From the NCBI GenBank assembly GCA_021228405.1, contig JAJQRF010000001.1, positions 372,001 to 436,000 of the forward strand: a DNA stretch of 64,000 nt. Reading direction: 5' to 3'. This stretch comes from Pyrinomonadaceae bacterium (GTDB taxonomy: Bacteria; Acidobacteriota; Blastocatellia; Pyrinomonadales; Pyrinomonadaceae). A program made the position numbers and the translations under genes. This document shows positions 34,041 to 43,203 of the stretch, in pieces; the first letter of the stretch is position 1; each line of letters opens with the position of its first letter. The notes beneath the pieces are model-generated. The model was given only the letters and a program-made list of their open reading frames with translations. It was not told where the DNA came from and did not search any database.

Positions 34041-34546
34041 ATTAGATTTTTTTGAGTTTCTACCGGATGGTTTTGTGGAAATCGAGCCTGATTAAACCTT
34101 AAACAGAGTTGGCACTTGTTTTTCTTTTATTGGAGAAAACAACGGAAAATATTTAAGAGGAACGGGAGAAGGTAAAACAAACTCAATCTCTGTTAAATTT
34201 GGTTGGCAAACAGTGTGCCGTAAAACTGTGTGCTCGAAATGATTTTTCAGACCTTTTAGAAATAAAAGAGTTACTTCCTGATAAGACGATTCTTGAGTTT
34301 CTTTTTCAGAATCCGCGTCGAAAAATTCGGCAGACTTTGGGGAATAATTGACGGGAAATTTTCTTGGTGAGGAATATTGCTACATCAAGGCGTATGTTTA
34401 TTTTTTAATTCAAATATTTTTTCTTCTTTCGATTTCTGCAAAGAGAATCATATATTTTGTAAACTTTTTAATTGAAATATCCGGTTTCAGGTTCCGGGTC
34501 GGATGTTTTGGAAACATTTTCCGAGTCGCCGGTTTCAAGGTTTTAT
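34041..34546. other. 506-bp divergent intergenic region
   Basis: It lies between the minus-strand FG-GAP protein and the plus-strand REC-GGDEF-EAL gene. It carries the near-symmetric GG-N10-GC site at 34203-34219. An AACAGAG/CTCTGTT inverted pair spans roughly 34101-34196. A GGTTTCA-type short repeat lies close to the GGDEF-EAL start. No coding gene is supported. Confidence 0.6.
34205..34220 (-). promoter_or_regulatory. Candidate sigma-54 promoter for the FG-GAP protein
   Basis: On the minus strand the sequence reads CGGCACACTGTTTGCC: GGCAC at -24 and TTTGC at -12 with exactly 10 nt between GG and GC. The expected start is near 34194, giving a leader of about 150 nt. The plus strand also fits GG-N10-GC (TTGGCAAACAGTGTGCC), but its flanks match less well. 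It is a match by eye and is not verified. Confidence 0.45.
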
Positions 34547-36316
34547 ATGGCTGAAAAACACAAAGAAAGTATTCTGATAATTGACGATGAAGCAATGGTC
34601 AGAAATGTTCTCTGCCAACTTCTTTGTGACAAATATTTCTGCATTGCCGCCGAAACCGCCGAAGATGCGCTGGCGATTCTGGAAGAAAAAACCTTTGACC
34701 TGATTATCAGCGACATCGATCTCGGCAGAACGAACGGCATCGAGTTGATTCCGAAAGTCTTTGAAAGCTCGCCCGATACGGTCGTCGTGATGATTAGCGG
34801 CAAGCAGACCATCGAAAGTGCGATCGATGCGATGAGGGTCGGTGCGTTCGATTACATAAAAAAACCGTTCGATCTCGATTATGTCGAAATCGCCGTGCGC
34901 CGCGCGCTCGATCATCATTACTTGCTAACGGCGAAACGCAGATACGAAAATCATCTCGAAGAACTCGTCAAACAAAGAACCGACGAACTTCATTATCTCG
35001 CTTATCACGACGCGCTGACCGATCTGCCGAATCGGATTCTCTTTGAAGACAGACTTTTTCAGGCTTTCGTTCAGGCACGGCAAAACCGGCAAAAGATCGC
35101 GGTTTTATTTCTGAGCCTGGACAGATTCAAGATAATTTCCGACACTCTGGGACATATTCCGGGCTTCAAATTATTACAGGAAGTCGCCGAGCGTCTGAAG
35201 CGATGCGTCGGCGAAAATTCGACTATCGCACGATTTGAAGGCGACGAATTCGCGCTTCTGCTGACGCAGATCAAAAATGCCAAGGAAGTCGTCGAGATCG
35301 TCGAAAAGATCGTCGAGGAAATAAATTTTCCGTTCAGCATCGACCGCAACAAGCTGTTTACGACCGCAAGCATCGGAGTCGGCTTTTTTCCCGAAGACGG
35401 TGACGACATCCAGACATTGCTGAAAAACACGGGAGTGGCACTTTCGCGCGTCAAGGCGCAGGGCGGAAACAGTTACCAGTTTTTCACGCCGGAAATGAAT
35501 TTGTCGGTTTTAAAACGCTTATCGCTCGAAAACGATCTGCGTTACGCGCTCGAACGCAATGAATTTGAGGTTTATTTTCAGCCGAAGCTCGACATCCATA
35601 CGCGGCAGATCGTCGGAATGGAAGCTCTCGTGCGTTGGAATCATCCAAAATCGGGCATCGTTTCGCCGCACGATTTCATTCCTCTGGCGGAAGAAACCGG
35701 GCTGATCGTTCCGCTCGGCGAATGGGTTTTGCGAAACGCCTGCCTGCAAAATAAAAAATGGCAGAATGACGGGCTTAAATTTTTGCCGATGTCGGTCAAC
35801 GTTTCTCCGCGTCAATTGGAAACTCCGAATCTGAGTGAAATAGTTGCCGAGATTCTCGCGGAAACGAAAATGGATGCAAGCTATCTGGAACTCGAAGTCA
35901 CGGAAAGTTCGATTATGAGCGATCCCGAATGTGCCGTTAAAATGCTGAACGATCTGAAAAAGATCGGCATTCGCATTTCCATCGACGATTTCGGGACGGG
36001 CTATTCCTCATTGAGCTACCTCAAACATTTGCCGATCGACGTTCTAAAGATCGACCGCGCTTTCGTGCAGGATTTGGCAAGCAACGCCGACGATGCCGCG
36101 CTGGTGATGACGATCATTACATTGGCGCATCATCTTCGGTTAAAAGTTGTCGCGGAAGGTGTGGAAACGGAAGACCAGTTGAGATATTTGCATCTGCTGA
36201 AATGCGACGAATGGCAAGGTTTTCTATACAGTAAGCCCGTTTCCGCCGATCGATTTATCAAACTGCTCGCCGACGAAAATCAAATTGCGGCGCAGGATTT
36301 AATGAAAGATCAATAA
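34547..36316 (+). CDS. Response regulator with GGDEF and EAL domains (c-di-GMP turnover)
   Basis: 589 residues from ATG 34547. The REC domain (about 1-125) has a phosphoacceptor Asp56 in IISDIDLG and Lys in YIKKPFD. A coiled linker is followed by a GGDEF domain whose signature is RFEGDEFALLL (Glu231 in place of the first Gly). The EAL domain has GMEALVRWNHP (Glu359), EVTESSIM, DDFGTGYSSLSYL and VAEGVET, the residues needed for phosphodiesterase activity. It probably degrades c-di-GMP, with a GGDEF domain that is weak or regulatory. It sits in the same region as a c-di-GMP riboswitch and a sigma-54 activator. Confidence 0.92.
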   Translation: MAEKHKESILIIDDEAMVRNVLCQLLCDKYFCIAAETAEDALAILEEKTFDLIISDIDLGRTNGIELIPKVFESSPDTVVVMISGKQTIESAIDAMRVGAFDYIKKPFDLDYVEIAVRRALDHHYLLTAKRRYENHLEELVKQRTDELHYLAYHDALTDLPNRILFEDRLFQAFVQARQNRQKIAVLFLSLDRFKIISDTLGHIPGFKLLQEVAERLKRCVGENSTIARFEGDEFALLLTQIKNAKEVVEIVEKIVEEINFPFSIDRNKLFTTASIGVGFFPEDGDDIQTLLKNTGVALSRVKAQGGNSYQFFTPEMNLSVLKRLSLENDLRYALERNEFEVYFQPKLDIHTRQIVGMEALVRWNHPKSGIVSPHDFIPLAEETGLIVPLGEWVLRNACLQNKKWQNDGLKFLPMSVNVSPRQLETPNLSEIVAEILAETKMDASYLELEVTESSIMSDPECAVKMLNDLKKIGIRISIDDFGTGYSSLSYLKHLPIDVLKIDRAFVQDLASNADDAALVMTIITLAHHLRLKVVAEGVETEDQLRYLHLLKCDEWQGFLYSKPVSADRFIKLLADENQIAAQDLMKDQ

Positions 36317-36422: not shown

Positions 36423-37136
36423 TTACATTACGAGGATTCCGTGGTAATTCATTTCATTTTTTTCAGGGATAAACTGTTCATCGATCGGTATATCTTCACC
36501 GCGAACGGTTCCGCCGAGCATTTCGATGGCGGCGACCTGTTCTTCGAGTAAATTTGCCAAGCCGTCGATCATATTCATTCCGAGTTCGATTCTTCTGCCG
36601 ATATTTCCGTCAGCATTGCGGGTTTGTCTGTCCAGCATCGGCGCGACTCTGAAATCGGCATTGAGATTTGAAAATAAATCCAAAGTTCCTTTGATTATTT
36701 TCGTGATGTGCGATTGGCGGTGACGCAAAATCTGATAATACTGGCGCAGATTTTCACCCGTCTTTTTCTGTTCGATGAACCAGACGACTTTCGCGTTCAG
36801 TTCCTGAACGTTCGTAAACTCGGTGAGAAAATCATCCGCTCCGGCGTGCAGGGCTTCGACGATTTTATCGATACTCTGGGAAAATTCGCTCAAAAATATG
36901 AACGGGGTTGCCCGAAGCTGTTTATCGGCACGAATCATCCGGCAAAATTCCAACCCCGGAATATCCGTCAGCTCCATCCGGCTGATAATCAGATCGGGAT
37001 GCTCACGACGAGCAAGACGAAAGGCTTCTCTGCCGCTGACGGCGTTTATTACTTCGTATCCGCGCTGTTGCAAAGAAGCTGTGATGATCTTTGCGTTTTC
37101 AGGATTATTGGTCGTTAAAAGAATTTTGTTTTTCAT
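36423..37136 (-). CDS. Degenerate receiver-domain protein
   Basis: 237 residues from ATG 37136. The N-terminal 120 residues have the CheY fold pattern (KILLTTNNPENAKIITASLQQRGYEVINAVSGREAFRLARREHPDLIIS), but the phosphoacceptor Asp is Arg53 (SRMELTDIPG). The acidic pair is TTNN and the conserved Lys is missing (FLTEFTN). It cannot be phosphorylated in the normal way. The C-terminal part is helical and unrecognised (QILRHRQSHITKIIKGTLDLF). Its transcription probably starts about 370 nt upstream at a sigma-54 promoter. An alternative upstream start at 37199 would put part of the leader hairpin in coding sequence. Confidence 0.75.
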   Translation of the reverse strand: MKNKILLTTNNPENAKIITASLQQRGYEVINAVSGREAFRLARREHPDLIISRMELTDIPGLEFCRMIRADKQLRATPFIFLSEFSQSIDKIVEALHAGADDFLTEFTNVQELNAKVVWFIEQKKTGENLRQYYQILRHRQSHITKIIKGTLDLFSNLNADFRVAPMLDRQTRNADGNIGRRIELGMNMIDGLANLLEEQVAAIEMLGGTVRGEDIPIDEQFIPEKNEMNYHGILVM

Positions 37137-37172
37137 GGGAATCAGATAACTGTCATTCTTAATTTTAGCTGC

Positions 37173-37253
37173 TTTCGAGGTAGTTAAGCCCCGCTTCATA
37201 CCGGCTCAAATCTAACAAAAAACCAATAATCACGGGGCTTAACTATCTCGAAA
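37173..37253 (-). promoter_or_regulatory. Leader hairpin upstream of the degenerate receiver gene
   Basis: The arms at 37173-37193 (TTTCGAGGTAGTTAAGCCCCG) and 37233-37253 pair over 21 bp with a single G-U wobble. In the minus-strand RNA the stem lies about 37 nt before the ATG at 37136. It could be a regulatory RNA structure or a terminator of the upstream transcript; no T-run follows directly. Confidence 0.5.
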
Positions 37254-37516: not shown

Positions 37517-37532
37517 TGCAAGCCTCGTGCCA
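37517..37532 (-). promoter_or_regulatory. Sigma-54 (-24/-12) promoter
   Basis: The minus strand reads TGGCACG-AGGC-TTGCA, a perfect match to the sigma-54 consensus TGGCACG-N4-TTGCW with GG and GC separated by 10 nt. The predicted start is near 37506, directing transcription to the degenerate receiver gene. The NtrC-type activator gene ends 140 bp upstream of the site. Confidence 0.85.
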
Positions 37533-37672: not shown

Positions 37673-39109
37673 TTATTCGATTTCAGACTCGTTTCGCTTG
37701 ATGATCCGCGCCAGGGTTTTACGGTCGATGTTCAGGATTCGTGCCGCCGCCTGTTTATTTCCGCCCGTATATTGCAAAACCTGCAAAACGTATTTTTCTT
37801 CCATCTCGGAAAGCGTCGTCGGCTGAAAACCGGAGGCGGATGAACCGGGTTCATTCAAAAAACTGGAAAACGATTTCGACTGTTCAGCTTCCGTTTCGAT
37901 AAACGATTGGATTCGCAAAGGAAGATTTTCGGGATAAATGATGTCGTCCGCCATCGAAACCGCGTGCAGAACGGCATTTTCGAGCTCGCGCACATTTCCC
38001 TGCCAGTTGTATTTTTGCAGGGCTTCAAGCGCGGCGGGCGAAAAAGAGGGTCGTTTGTCGGTCAGAGAATGAACCTGTGAAGCGAAATGTTCCGCAAGCA
38101 GTGGAATGTCTTCCACGCGATCACGAAGCGGCGGAAGCTGGATCGTCACGGCGTTCAGACGATACATTAAATCCTGCCGGAAACGATTTTCTTTGACTTC
38201 TTCTTCAATATTCCGGTTTGTCGCGGCAATTACGCGCACATCGACTGCAATCGTGCGATTGGAGCCGACGCGCCGAATCTCCGATTGCTGAAGTGCGCGA
38301 AGAAGTTTTACCTGAAACAAAGGGCTCGTTTCGGTTATTTCATCAAGTAGGATCGTGCCGCCGTTGGCTTCTTCCCAAAGCCCGATGCGTTCACGCTCGG
38401 CACCTGTAAACGAACCTCTGACGTGTCCGAAAAGTTCGGATTCGATCAGTTCGACCGGGATCGCACCGCAGTTTACCGCGACAAACGGACCGTTTGCGCG
38501 GTCGCTTCGACGGTGAATCGCCCTCGCGACGACTTCCTTTCCCGTGCCCGATTCGCCCGTTATCAAAACGGGCAGGCTCGTCGCGGCAACGCGCCCGACC
38601 ATTTTCAGACACTCGACAAATTTCGGGCTTCTCCCGATCAAAGGAATGTCCGAAGTATATCCCAGTTCCGCTTTTTGATTTTGTTCCTTTCCGCTCTGCT
38701 GACGAAGTTGATGCTGTTCACGAACGATTTTTGAAATGTTGATGATGTCATCGACCGAAAAAGGCTTAACCAGATAATCGAAGGCACCGATCGCCGTCGC
38801 TTCGAGCGCACCGACCGCCGAACCGTGTCCGGTCATCATCACGAAACGCGCTTCGTTTTGGAGTTTTGAGAAGTTTCGCAGAATCTCATAGCCGTCCGCT
38901 TCGCCGAGCATTACATCGCAGAAAACGAGCAGCCATTGTTTTTCATCGAGCAATACGTATGCTTCTTCGGCAGAACCTGCTGTGCTCACTTTCCAGCCGC
39001 TTGTTTGTAATACGTCGGCGACAAAATTTCTGACTTGCGGCTCGTCATCTATGACCAGTGCGGGCAAATCTTTTTTCACATCTGAAAGTATATCACGCAA
39101 TAATAACAT
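37673..39109 (-). CDS. Sigma-54-dependent response regulator (NtrC family)
   Basis: 478 residues. The REC domain carries Asp65 (FCDVMLG) and Lys in YLVKPF. The AAA+ domain has Walker A GESGTGKE (185-192), a loop-1 motif GSFTGA (232-237, normally GAFTGA) that contacts sigma-54, Walker B GGTILLDE (250-257) and RVIAATNRN. A C-terminal FIS helix-turn-helix is present (NKQAAARILNIDRKTLARII). It remodels sigma-54 RNA polymerase at enhancer-dependent promoters; the promoters at 34205, 37517 and 40051 are candidate targets. Autoregulation is not visible in its own upstream sequence. Confidence 0.96.
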   Translation of the reverse strand: MLLLRDILSDVKKDLPALVIDDEPQVRNFVADVLQTSGWKVSTAGSAEEAYVLLDEKQWLLVFCDVMLGEADGYEILRNFSKLQNEARFVMMTGHGSAVGALEATAIGAFDYLVKPFSVDDIINISKIVREQHQLRQQSGKEQNQKAELGYTSDIPLIGRSPKFVECLKMVGRVAATSLPVLITGESGTGKEVVARAIHRRSDRANGPFVAVNCGAIPVELIESELFGHVRGSFTGAERERIGLWEEANGGTILLDEITETSPLFQVKLLRALQQSEIRRVGSNRTIAVDVRVIAATNRNIEEEVKENRFRQDLMYRLNAVTIQLPPLRDRVEDIPLLAEHFASQVHSLTDKRPSFSPAALEALQKYNWQGNVRELENAVLHAVSMADDIIYPENLPLRIQSFIETEAEQSKSFSSFLNEPGSSASGFQPTTLSEMEEKYVLQVLQYTGGNKQAAARILNIDRKTLARIIKRNESEIE

Positions 39110-39262: not shown

Positions 39263-39835
39263 TTACTTTTTTAGAAAAACCTGTGTGAAATAATATGTTC
39301 CGTCACGCGCAACGGCGATGCCGACCCCCGATTCCCTCCATTTCTCTCTCAAAATATTTTCCCGGTGCCCGGGAGAATTCATCCAACAATTAATCACTTG
39401 CTTGAAAGGTTGGTTATAACCGCGCAAAGAAGCGATGTTTTCGCCGATCATCCGCCATTTTTTCAAACCGATCGAATCGGCTCTGTTGTCAACCTTTTTC
39501 CCGTCAAGCCCCTGATGGCTGAAAAACCTATACTGCGCCATATTTGCCGAGTGCATTCGCGCCACCGAAGCCGATTGCTCGTTCCAGATCAAAGGTTTCA
39601 AACCGTATTCCCTTCTTTTCGTATTTATCAGTTCAAATACCTGTCGTTCAATGTAAGTAGCAGTTAAATATTCGGACGAAAGATTGCCGAGATTGATGAA
39701 AAACTCGGCATTGGTTTTGTTTTCAAATACTTGCAAACGATTTGTTTCATCTGCCTTCACTCCTATCGCGGAGTTAATAAAAACTGCTGTAAAAAAAAGT
39801 AAAAAACGCGGGAAAAACTGAAAATACTGTTTCAT
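39263..39835 (-). CDS. Secreted CAP (SCP/PR-1/YkwD) domain protein
   Basis: 190 residues. The signal peptide (FPRFLLFFTAVFINSAIGVKA) is followed by a CAP domain: VFELINTKRREYGLKPLIWNEQSASVARMHSANMAQYRFFSHQGLDGKK, GENIASLRG, VINCWMNSPGHRENIL and YYFTQVFLKK. The two His and the Glu of the CAP cavity are in MHSANMA, GEN and GHRENIL. Such proteins bind lipids or cell-wall components outside the cell; enzymatic activity is unproven. Its expression is likely controlled by a c-di-GMP riboswitch in the leader and a sigma-54 promoter. Confidence 0.9.
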   Translation of the reverse strand: MKQYFQFFPRFLLFFTAVFINSAIGVKADETNRLQVFENKTNAEFFINLGNLSSEYLTATYIERQVFELINTKRREYGLKPLIWNEQSASVARMHSANMAQYRFFSHQGLDGKKVDNRADSIGLKKWRMIGENIASLRGYNQPFKQVINCWMNSPGHRENILREKWRESGVGIAVARDGTYYFTQVFLKK

Positions 39836-39845
39836 GATTCTTATT

Positions 39846-39920
39846 TCGGTAGCCAGACTATCTCCTTTTTCAAAAGAGACTCACGGCTTTGCGTTGCCTG
39901 CATCGCTACAGGGTTGCCAA
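39846..39920 (-). promoter_or_regulatory. Class I c-di-GMP riboswitch (GEMM-I)
   Basis: On the minus strand the leader contains GGCAACC, a P2 stem CCTGTA-GCGA-TGCAGG with a GNRA tetraloop, the conserved ACGCAAAGCC, then a P3 stem built from GTCTC..GAGAT and AGTC, and a closing GGCTACCG. These are the conserved positions of the GEMM-I aptamer in the right order and spacing. The aptamer ends about 11 nt before the CAP gene ATG, so it may control ribosome access. The match was made by eye. Confidence 0.88.
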
Positions 39921-40050
39921 TTTGTCGTTTAAGAGTTCAAATGATCGAATTTCGGTGCTGTTTATGTTAGATTCTGACGGTTGAATGATGTTTCCATTTT
40001 ATTTTCGTTTCTTTTTTGACGGTTCAAATATTCAACCTAAAGAAATTATG

Positions 40051-40066
40051 AGCAAAACGCGTGCCC
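40051..40066 (-). promoter_or_regulatory. Sigma-54 (-24/-12) promoter of the CAP gene
   Basis: The minus strand reads GGGCACG-CGTT-TTGCT, matching TGGCACG-N4-TTGCW at all but one position, with GG-N10-GC spacing. The predicted start near 40040 gives a leader of about 205 nt that contains the c-di-GMP riboswitch. Confidence 0.75.
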
Positions 40067-40500: not shown

Positions 40501-43203
40501 ATGAAAAATATTTCGGATCAGGACGAATCTGAATCAAAACCATTGAAGCCGCGCAATTTTTATCTATTTGAAAATTCGATCAACGGAATTCTGATCTTAA
40601 ACGCCAAAACTCAACGGATCATCGATGCCAACTCGTTCATCAAAAAGCTTTTGAATTACGCCGCCGAAGAAATCATCGGGAAGGAACTTTTTGAAATAGG
40701 TATTTTTCGGAATAAAAAACAGGTTTCGGCAATTCTCACCGAACTCAATGAAAACGGGTATTTTCATATCGGCGATTTAGCGGTCGCGACCAAAAACGGA
40801 ATGCAGGTATTTATCGAAATTACCGGAAACGTTTTTACCGAAGACGGGAACAAGTTAATAAAATTCAATATTCACGACATTACACAGAGAAAAAAAACCG
40901 AGCAGGAATTGCGGGAAACCGAAGAAAATTACCGCGCGCTGGTTCTGGCAACGACGCAAATCGTCTGGACGCGGAAGGAAGGCGAATCGAGTTACTCAAA
41001 TTCGCAGTGGTGGAACGAACTGACCGGACAACCGGCTGATTCGATGAACAATTTCGGCTGGCTCGAAATGGTGCATCCCGACGACCGCGACAATGCGAAA
41101 ACTGCGTGGCAATATGCGTATAAAAATCGTCGATTATTCGATATTACCTACCGTGTTTTGACGAAAACAAAGGAATATCGTTTTTTTGCCGTGCGCGGCG
41201 TTCCCATTTTTAACAGCGACGGGAGTTTTCGCCAATGGATCGGCACCTTTACGGATATAACCGAACAAAAACTGATCGAACGGCAAAATCAGCAATTGAT
41301 GCACGACCTCGCCGATTTCAAATCTGCCCTGGACGAATCGGCAATCGTCGCCATCACCGATCAACGCGGAAAAATCACTTATGTAAACGATAAATTTTGC
41401 GAAATTTCAAAATATCGCCGCGAAGAACTGATCGGGCAGGATCATCGAATCATCAATTCGGGCTATCACTCGAAAGCGTTTATCCGTAATTTGTGGACGA
41501 CCATCGCCAGCGGCAAAATCTGGCGCGGCGAAATTCGCAATTTAACCAAAACCGGAGAGATTTATTGGGTTGACACGACCATTGTCCCTTTTCTGGATAC
41601 CGATCAGAAACCTTTCCAATATATTGCGATTCGATACGATATTACCGGGCGCAAGATCACGGAAGAAAAACTCATCAAGGAAAAGGCTTTTAATGAAACG
41701 GCGATCAACACACTACCCGGTATTTTTTATCTTTTCGATCAGAACGGGAGATTTCTGCTCTGGAATGACAATTTTGAAAAAGTTTCCAAATATACAGGCA
41801 AGGAAATAAGGGGAATGCAGCCTTCCGACTTTTTTCTGGGCGCGGAAAAAGAACTCATCGCAGAAAAAATAAACGAAGTTTTTGAAATCGGCGAATCGGC
41901 GGTCGAAGCCGATTTTGTTTCAAAAGATCAAACTTGCACGCCGTATTTTTTTACGGGAAAACGAATTGCGTTTGAACAGATGGATTGCGTTATCGGGATG
42001 GGCATCGATATGACCGAACGCAAAAAAACCGAGGAAGCTCTTCGTCAGAGCGAAGAACAACTCAGACAGGCGCAAAAGCTCGAATCGGTCGGGCGGCTGG
42101 CGGGCGGCATCGCGCACGATTTCAATAATATGTTGACCGCCATCAACGGTTACAGCGATCTGACGCTTCGCCGTTTAAGTTCCGACGACCCTTTAAGACA
42201 CAATATCGAGGAAATTAAAAAAGCGGGAGAACGTTCTGCCGAACTCACGCAACAGCTTCTCGCTTTCAGCCGCCAGCAGATTATGCAGCCGAAGATTTTG
42301 AGCCTGAACGATGTCGTTTCGGATACGAGCCAGATGCTGAAACGGCTGATCGGCGAAGATATTCGTTTGACAATTTCATTAAATTCACAGGCAGGACAAG
42401 TCAAAGTCGATCCGGGTCAGCTTTCGCAGGTCATCATCAATTTAGCGGTCAACGCCCGCGATGCGATGCCGAAGGGCGGAATCTTGACCATCGAAACCGC
42501 GAATGTCGTTTTAGACGAAGATTACACGGTAAAATATCACGATCTAACGCCCGGAAAATACGTAATGCTCGCGGTCAGCGATAACGGACTCGGGATTGAC
42601 GAAGAAAGACAAAAGTATATTTTCGAGCCTTTTTTCACGACTAAAGAAATCGGCAAAGGAACCGGTTTAGGGCTGGCGACCGTTTACGGTGTCATCAAAC
42701 AATCCGGCGGTCATATCTGGCTTTACAGCGAAATCGGGCAAGGTTCGACCTTCAAAATATACTTGCCGAGAATAGATGAGGAAAATCTTGAAAAAGATAA
42801 CGATTCGCCCAAAAGCGGCATTTATCTGGGCAATGAAACGATTCTTCTTGTCGAAGACGAAAAAATGGTCAGAAATTTGAGCCGTCAGGTTCTTCAAGCC
42901 TGCGGTTATCGTGTGATCGAAGCGTCAAACGGCATAGAAGCATTAAAACTTTGTGAAAGAACGCTGATTCAGTTCGATCTCCTGCTTACCGATGTCGTGA
43001 TGCCTGAAATGGGCGGACGTGAGCTTTCGGAAAAATTGGCTAAACTTTATCCCAAAATAAAAGTTTTATTTACTTCCGGATACACGGACGATGCGATCGT
43101 GCGGCACGGGGTCATCAATGAAGGCGCAAATTTTCTGCAAAAGCCTTTCACCTTTGACGCGCTCGCCCGCAAAGTCCGCCAATTGCTCGATGAAAAGATT
43201 TGA
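40501..43203 (+). CDS. Hybrid histidine kinase with multiple PAS domains
   Basis: 900 residues, no transmembrane segment. Four PAS-type sensor domains (about 15-130, 145-260, 285-400, 410-510) are followed by HisKA with phosphorylated His539 ([22 protein letters not shown]). The HATPase_c domain follows ([47 protein letters not shown]). A C-terminal receiver has Asp831 ([13 protein letters not shown]) and Lys in LQKPF. It may signal to the nearby response regulators. The ribosome binding site is AAGGAG before ATG 40501. There is no adjacent separate Hpt gene. Confidence 0.95.

Follow-up and report, generated by a model that had tools for sequence, protein, structure and literature searches.

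A c-di-GMP-I riboswitch and a putative sigma-54 promoter upstream of a secreted CAP protein gene in the Pyrinomonadaceae

The stretch of DNA analysed here (64,000 nucleotides, hereafter the window) carries a gene for a secreted CAP protein whose leader holds a c-di-GMP-I (GEMM-I) riboswitch and, upstream of it, a sigma-54 promoter-like box. It is probable that this gene is controlled at both levels, its translation by the riboswitch and its transcription from the sigma-54 promoter, so that production of the protein would require both a phosphorylated activator and low c-di-GMP. The aptamer, its conserved link to CAP genes, the pairing of helix P1 with the ribosome-binding site, the synteny of the locus and the promoter motif can all be read directly in the sequences compared. 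Neither the riboswitch class nor sigma-54 control nor CAP proteins are new; the CAP target or regulon and the P1 platform are apparently undescribed. Secreted CAP proteins would be a lineage-wide c-di-GMP-I target in these soil Acidobacteriota, and the function of bacterial CAP proteins is poorly known.

The aptamer and its association with CAP genes

The preliminary description had placed a GEMM-I aptamer with a GNRA tetraloop and a conserved motif in the minus-strand leader of the CAP gene, and had named a search with Rfam model RF01051 as a check. That search gave a full-length match (model positions 1-87; window positions 39928-39845, minus strand) with an Infernal score of 49.8 bits (E = 9.9e-7 for the 64 kb searched), above the gathering score of 35 bits. 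In the Rfam alignment, P2 of the window aptamer ends in a GCGA (GNRA) tetraloop and ACGCAAAGCC is also there, as described; the marks of c-di-GMP-I aptamers that it displays are this tetraloop, the conserved CGCAAAGCC and a G at position 20 (the G before GC), in the numbering of Vc2. GEMM-Ib riboswitches for 3′,3′-cGAMP carry an A at this specificity position, where the window copy has G instead. The CAP initiation codon, at 39835, follows the aptamer after nine bases (39844-39836), so that the place of the aptamer just before the start codon stands, at 9 nt rather than the roughly 11 nt first given. By its sequence this leader is a genuine c-di-GMP-I riboswitch, and it presumably binds c-di-GMP. 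An apparent change of a ligand-contacting C to U in this lineage was dropped, as the Rfam structure line puts that position in a P3 stem pair.

The gene downstream (39263-39835, minus strand) encodes a 190 amino acid CAP (SCP/YkwD-like) protein that matches PF00188 at 66.8 bits (curated cut-off 21.1 bits) and has a signal-peptide-like N-terminus, a hydrophobic segment judged by eye. It scores 99 bits against TIGR02909, below that model's cut-off of 171, and has a PDB match, 4ifa; a signal peptide followed by one CAP domain is the arrangement of the known CAP/SCP proteins of PF00188. Its named relatives are records from Pyrinomonadaceae, Blastocatellia and Chloracidobacterium. A scan of genome contigs with the single window protein as query found no relative, and an alignment query did find them.

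The c-di-GMP-I riboswitches of the window genome number only two. Both lie ahead of CAP genes, the second (on contig C12) with a gap of 11 nt to the gene of a secreted CAP protein; no GEMM leader was found at the third CAP gene of this genome (G000:C11, L163). Matches to RF01051 occur in 79 of 119 genomes of the family, and a CAP gene lies directly downstream of 50 of the family's 144 GEMM-I matches, in 46 genomes. The start codon usually follows these CAP-linked aptamers by 9 to 14 nt, three of the 50 being distal members of tandem pairs, and at least 15 further CAP leaders contain sub-threshold GEMM copies (13, plus L131 and L158). In a well-supported CAP clade of 61 rows the leader is missing only from L162, and that of L160 is cut by the contig end. 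The c-di-GMP-type G is found in 48 of the 50 CAP-linked matches. In two CAP-linked copies from one genus, L097 (G007:C8:53675-53751) and L094 (G004:C263:3069-3145), the specificity base is A in one and C in the other, and ligand choice may have changed in that genus.

The GEMM matches examined in other families of the class lie before pilM, TPR-type and other genes, not before CAP genes, and the 59 CAP loci taken from outside the phylum, among them loci of Cyanobacteria, Proteobacteria and Chloroflexi, gave no Rfam riboswitch match. Given this family-wide link and its absence from the other families and phyla examined, the association between c-di-GMP-I and CAP is, judged from its distribution, an old trait of the window's family. 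GEMM-I copies before pilM in other families of the class (L181, L182, L183, L184) have the A of the cGAMP type, and in the window's family G-type GEMM-I copies lie upstream of pilM (for example L017, L023, L030). Tandem c-di-GMP-I riboswitches precede genes for secreted beta-helix-like proteins in L004, L006, L009, L010, L025 and others; the distal copy of such a pair is far from the gene and the proximal one has its terminal GUGAGG immediately ahead of the start codon, an arrangement that suggests a two-step device.

Helix P1, the ribosome-binding site and the direction of the switch

Helix P1 is absent from the RF01051 model. The CAP leaders share the pattern ACCUUA-n2-CGA...CCGAA-G-UGAGGU-n3-5-AUG, in which ACCUUA pairs with UGAGGU to form P1, an inner CG:CG pair is conserved and GAGG is the Shine-Dalgarno sequence; on this pattern the 3′ strand of the aptamer's P1 is the Shine-Dalgarno stretch itself. 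In the window the 5′ strand is UCUUA (39930-39934, minus strand; the anti-Shine-Dalgarno) and the 3′ strand is UAAGA (39839-39843, minus strand), which lies 3 nt before the ATG in the place occupied by GAGG in its orthologues. The minimum free energy fold of the 111-nt window leader consists of the aptamer plus this P1. At -3.4 kcal/mol the window helix is weak, and UAAGA makes a poor Shine-Dalgarno sequence.

The register of P1 shifts between lineages, and its pairing is preserved by changes in both strands in about six of them: CUCUU/GAAGA-type in G002, G003 and G006, CUCCUC/GAGGAG in G007, AUAAC/GUUAU in G004, GCC(n)UCAC/GUGAGGU in G026, G027 and G028, CUUCA/UGAAG in G032 and G029, and UCUUA/UAAGA in the window. 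When 5′ and 3′ strands were re-dealt among leaders, the duplexes averaged -5.52 +/- 0.17 kcal/mol against -6.13 for the leaders' own pairs, and 5 of 5000 shuffles were as good, in a set that includes two rows with truncated 3′ strands and from which two rows were skipped. Related rows are not independent, and the case for P1 therefore rests on the roughly six separate both-strand changes. A ribosome-site strand that lies in P1, its pairing kept through such changes, is the mark of a translational riboswitch of the type with its ribosome site in P1, and the CAP leaders show it. The preliminary description had proposed control of ribosome access from the nearness of the aptamer to the start codon; the family-wide conservation of the GEMM-I-CAP arrangement and the covarying Shine-Dalgarno strand strengthen that proposal, and an expression platform with the ribosome site in P1 appears well supported by these comparisons. 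Such a platform is compact and, as P1 covaries, its direction and mechanism are open to simple mutation tests.

In the layout of the related cGAMP riboswitch (PMC6274999) the ligand junction adjoins P1; ligand should therefore stabilise P1 and close the ribosome site. It is thus likely, from the position of this helix, that the leader is an OFF switch, in which high c-di-GMP lowers CAP translation: c-di-GMP bound at the three-way junction would stabilise P1, the ribosome site would be hidden and CAP synthesis would drop; at low c-di-GMP, P1 would open and the CAP mRNA would be translated.

The opposite direction, an ON switch in which ligand frees a ribosome site that is otherwise paired with early coding sequence, has to be considered because ligand-free folding with a long coding stretch moves the site into other pairs. 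The ligand-free folding varies with the length of coding sequence included; at 45 nt, the site is paired for the most part with RNA further downstream (median 0.47) and seldom in P1 (0.06), and forcing P1 to form in the full window leader costs 2.5 kcal/mol relative to the free ensemble. With 20 nt or less of coding sequence, however, P1 dominates (median 0.69, window 0.83), and a ribosome site inside the helix nearest the ligand, with its pairing preserved across lineages, makes the ON direction unlikely. Regulation by transcription termination within the leader is highly improbable: T-runs are present just inside the coding sequence (TTTTTTACTTTTTTTT), but they lack a preceding G+C-rich stem, the one terminator-like site that turned up coincides with the promoter box, and the aptamer-ATG gap of only nine nucleotides leaves no room for a terminator. 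It is also quite improbable that the aptamer senses 3′,3′-cGAMP, another cyclic dinucleotide, or is a decaying copy. The specificity position is indeed A in some GEMM-I copies of related Acidobacteriota, the window copy carries UU next to that position in place of the usual AA, and sub-threshold copies are common, but the G shared by the window and nearly all CAP-linked matches, a window score well over the cut-off and a P1 maintained across lineages all favour a functional c-di-GMP aptamer.

The sigma-54 box and its signalling cluster

Upstream of the aptamer on the minus strand lies the sigma-54 promoter-like box GGGCACGCGTTTTGCT (GGGCACG-CGTT-TTGCT; 40051-40066), which has the exact GG and GC of the -24/-12 elements with 10 nt between them and a single mismatch to the consensus TGGCACGNNNNTTGCW. 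It is 122 nt upstream of the aptamer and about 205 nt upstream of the ATG; the preliminary description had reported this match correctly and put it at a distance of about 130 bp, which is slightly too long. Transcription from it is predicted to start near 40040, 12 nt past the GC of the box. A second box, TGGCACGAGGCTTGCA (37517-37532, minus strand), agrees exactly with the consensus and lies before the gene for a response-regulator receiver (REC) protein. Two consensus-pattern matches were found against 0.59 expected per 64 kb, and 9 of 100 shuffled sequences had two or more, so the pattern alone is only moderately rare. By an approximate weight matrix based on the consensus, no other site of the window, whichever the strand, scores as high as these two, of which the CAP box is second; in simulated sequence, sites scoring as high as the CAP box or higher numbered 0.15 per 128 kb, and none reached the score of the REC-gene box.

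The two boxes flank, one on each side, the gene for an NtrC-type sigma-54 activator (37673-39109, minus strand; REC-AAA-Fis HTH, with a GSFTGA loop and a PF00158 match of 233 bits). The genome encodes rpoN (PF04552, 199 bits), so that both prerequisites of sigma-54 transcription are present, the sigma factor in the genome and the enhancer-binding protein next door. Beyond the activator are the REC protein gene with a C-terminal helical part (36423-37199, minus strand) and a gene for a REC-GGDEF-EAL protein (34472-36316, plus strand), likely to be a local c-di-GMP enzyme. A PAS hybrid histidine kinase with a C-terminal REC domain (40501-43203, plus strand) is divergent from CAP. The REC-GGDEF-EAL protein and sigma-54 activator that the preliminary description had noted near the CAP gene were confirmed at the level of their domains.

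The window CAP protein groups with L155 (genome G032) and L128/L174 (G029), with support of 97/89, apart from the common CAP to which the genome's second riboswitch locus belongs; it is, by this grouping, a second paralogue. The G032 and G029 loci have the order activator, sigma-54 box, short ORF, GEMM and CAP, with a similar PAS kinase facing. The short ORF, directly upstream of GEMM-CAP in both genomes, is related to the C-terminal part of the window REC protein. In G032 the adjoining activator is a 73% identical orthologue of the window's, and the cluster there also has a 60% identical REC-GGDEF-EAL orthologue (G032:C325) and a box before its activator (L197:1601, score 17.1). The syntenic box of G032, TGGCACATGGCTTGCC at L155:709, is strong (14.3) and that of G029, TGGTATAAGGGTTGCA at L174:1092, is weak (10.6). 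The position of the box differs, as the window CAP gene has its own box and in G029 and G032 CAP follows the boxed short ORF.

It might be argued that the riboswitch is real and the sigma-54 box a chance match, the gene being read from a housekeeping promoter with no dual control. Besides the expected number of such motifs per 64 kb given above, a sigma-70-like site matching at 9 of 12 positions overlaps the box, and the other GEMM-CAP genes lack one: no sigma-54 box was found upstream of any of the remaining GEMM-CAP leaders examined. We consider this rather doubtful, since the CAP box is the second-best of the whole window and adjoins an activator gene, boxes recur in the syntenic loci at L155:709 and L197:1601 where a score of 14.3 or more is expected 0.6 times per 128 kb, and the sigma-70-like site is itself within chance (2.9 expected, 1 found). 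Because the nearest CAP relatives share the cluster and sigma-54 boxes recur there, dual sigma-54 and c-di-GMP control of the window CAP gene appears well supported by these comparisons; because the other GEMM-CAP leaders are without a box, the sigma-54 layer would belong only to this paralogue and its cluster and not to GEMM-CAP genes generally.

A shared activator-binding palindrome was sought upstream of the sigma-54 boxes and none was found; GGGTGAA, common to two upstream regions, was rejected as a candidate activator site, as its frequency is at chance level. Genomes G058 and G034 (L194, L195) have several sigma-54 boxes together with parts of the cluster (activator and REC; GGDEF-EAL, REC and kinase), and no CAP relative was found in the 12 kb of these loci. 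The leader of the window REC gene (37173-37253) contains a unique 21-nt inverted repeat, 95% complementary, with a 39-nt loop. This loop holds the annotated REC ATG (37199), so this start may be concealed, or translation may in truth begin further downstream.

Combined control and comparison with known systems

In the dual control favoured here, the CAP mRNA would be made from the sigma-54 promoter. The NtrC-type activator of the downstream gene, receiving its signal from the neighbouring kinase, would most likely drive this promoter, and CAP would be produced when phosphorylated activator coincides with low c-di-GMP. A fuller version, which we hold as tentative and somewhat less than even, is an AND-NOT gate in one leader: the PAS hybrid kinase would act through the NtrC-type activator on the sigma-54 promoter, c-di-GMP set in part by the neighbouring REC-GGDEF-EAL protein would close the ribosome site through P1, and the family-wide switch would be a new output of c-di-GMP. 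If so, the cluster would make both the transcript and its silencing signal, and the new output would be envelope or matrix remodelling in low-c-di-GMP cells. The window copy would offer a clean natural example in which sigma-54 and a second messenger act on one mRNA.

The Vibrio cholerae c-di-GMP-I riboswitches Vc1 (gbpA) and Vc2 (VC1722, a tfoX homologue) lie in the leaders of genes for secreted or environment-facing proteins (PMC12564702). They have the same RF01051 fold, GNRA loop with receptor, and specificity G as the window copy, which differs from them in its CAP target, in a ribosome strand that is the 3′ strand of P1 a few nt from the start, and in the upstream sigma-54 box. The Geobacter GEMM-Ib 3′,3′-cGAMP riboswitches alter transcript levels (PMC6456294) and share the fold, ligand three-way junction and P1 (PMC6456294, PMC6274999); unlike them, the window copy has the specificity G and no terminator. 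The REC-AAA-Fis protein, its GSFTGA loop and -24/-12 boxes beside its gene are those of NtrC-family/sigma-54 operons, but here the regulated leader also holds a riboswitch, a kind of leader that likewise distinguishes the window CAP gene from the CAP loci of other phyla.

A literature search that combined riboswitch, GEMM, c-di-GMP and sigma-54 returned only Geobacter, Borrelia or general c-di-GMP papers, and no paper linking c-di-GMP riboswitches with CAP proteins or with the window's family was found in a search that most subscription literature lies outside; this silence is weak evidence for the novelty of the link. Elsewhere in the window genome, the 888 amino acid product of dnaB (L123:626-3292) appears to contain an intein-like insertion.
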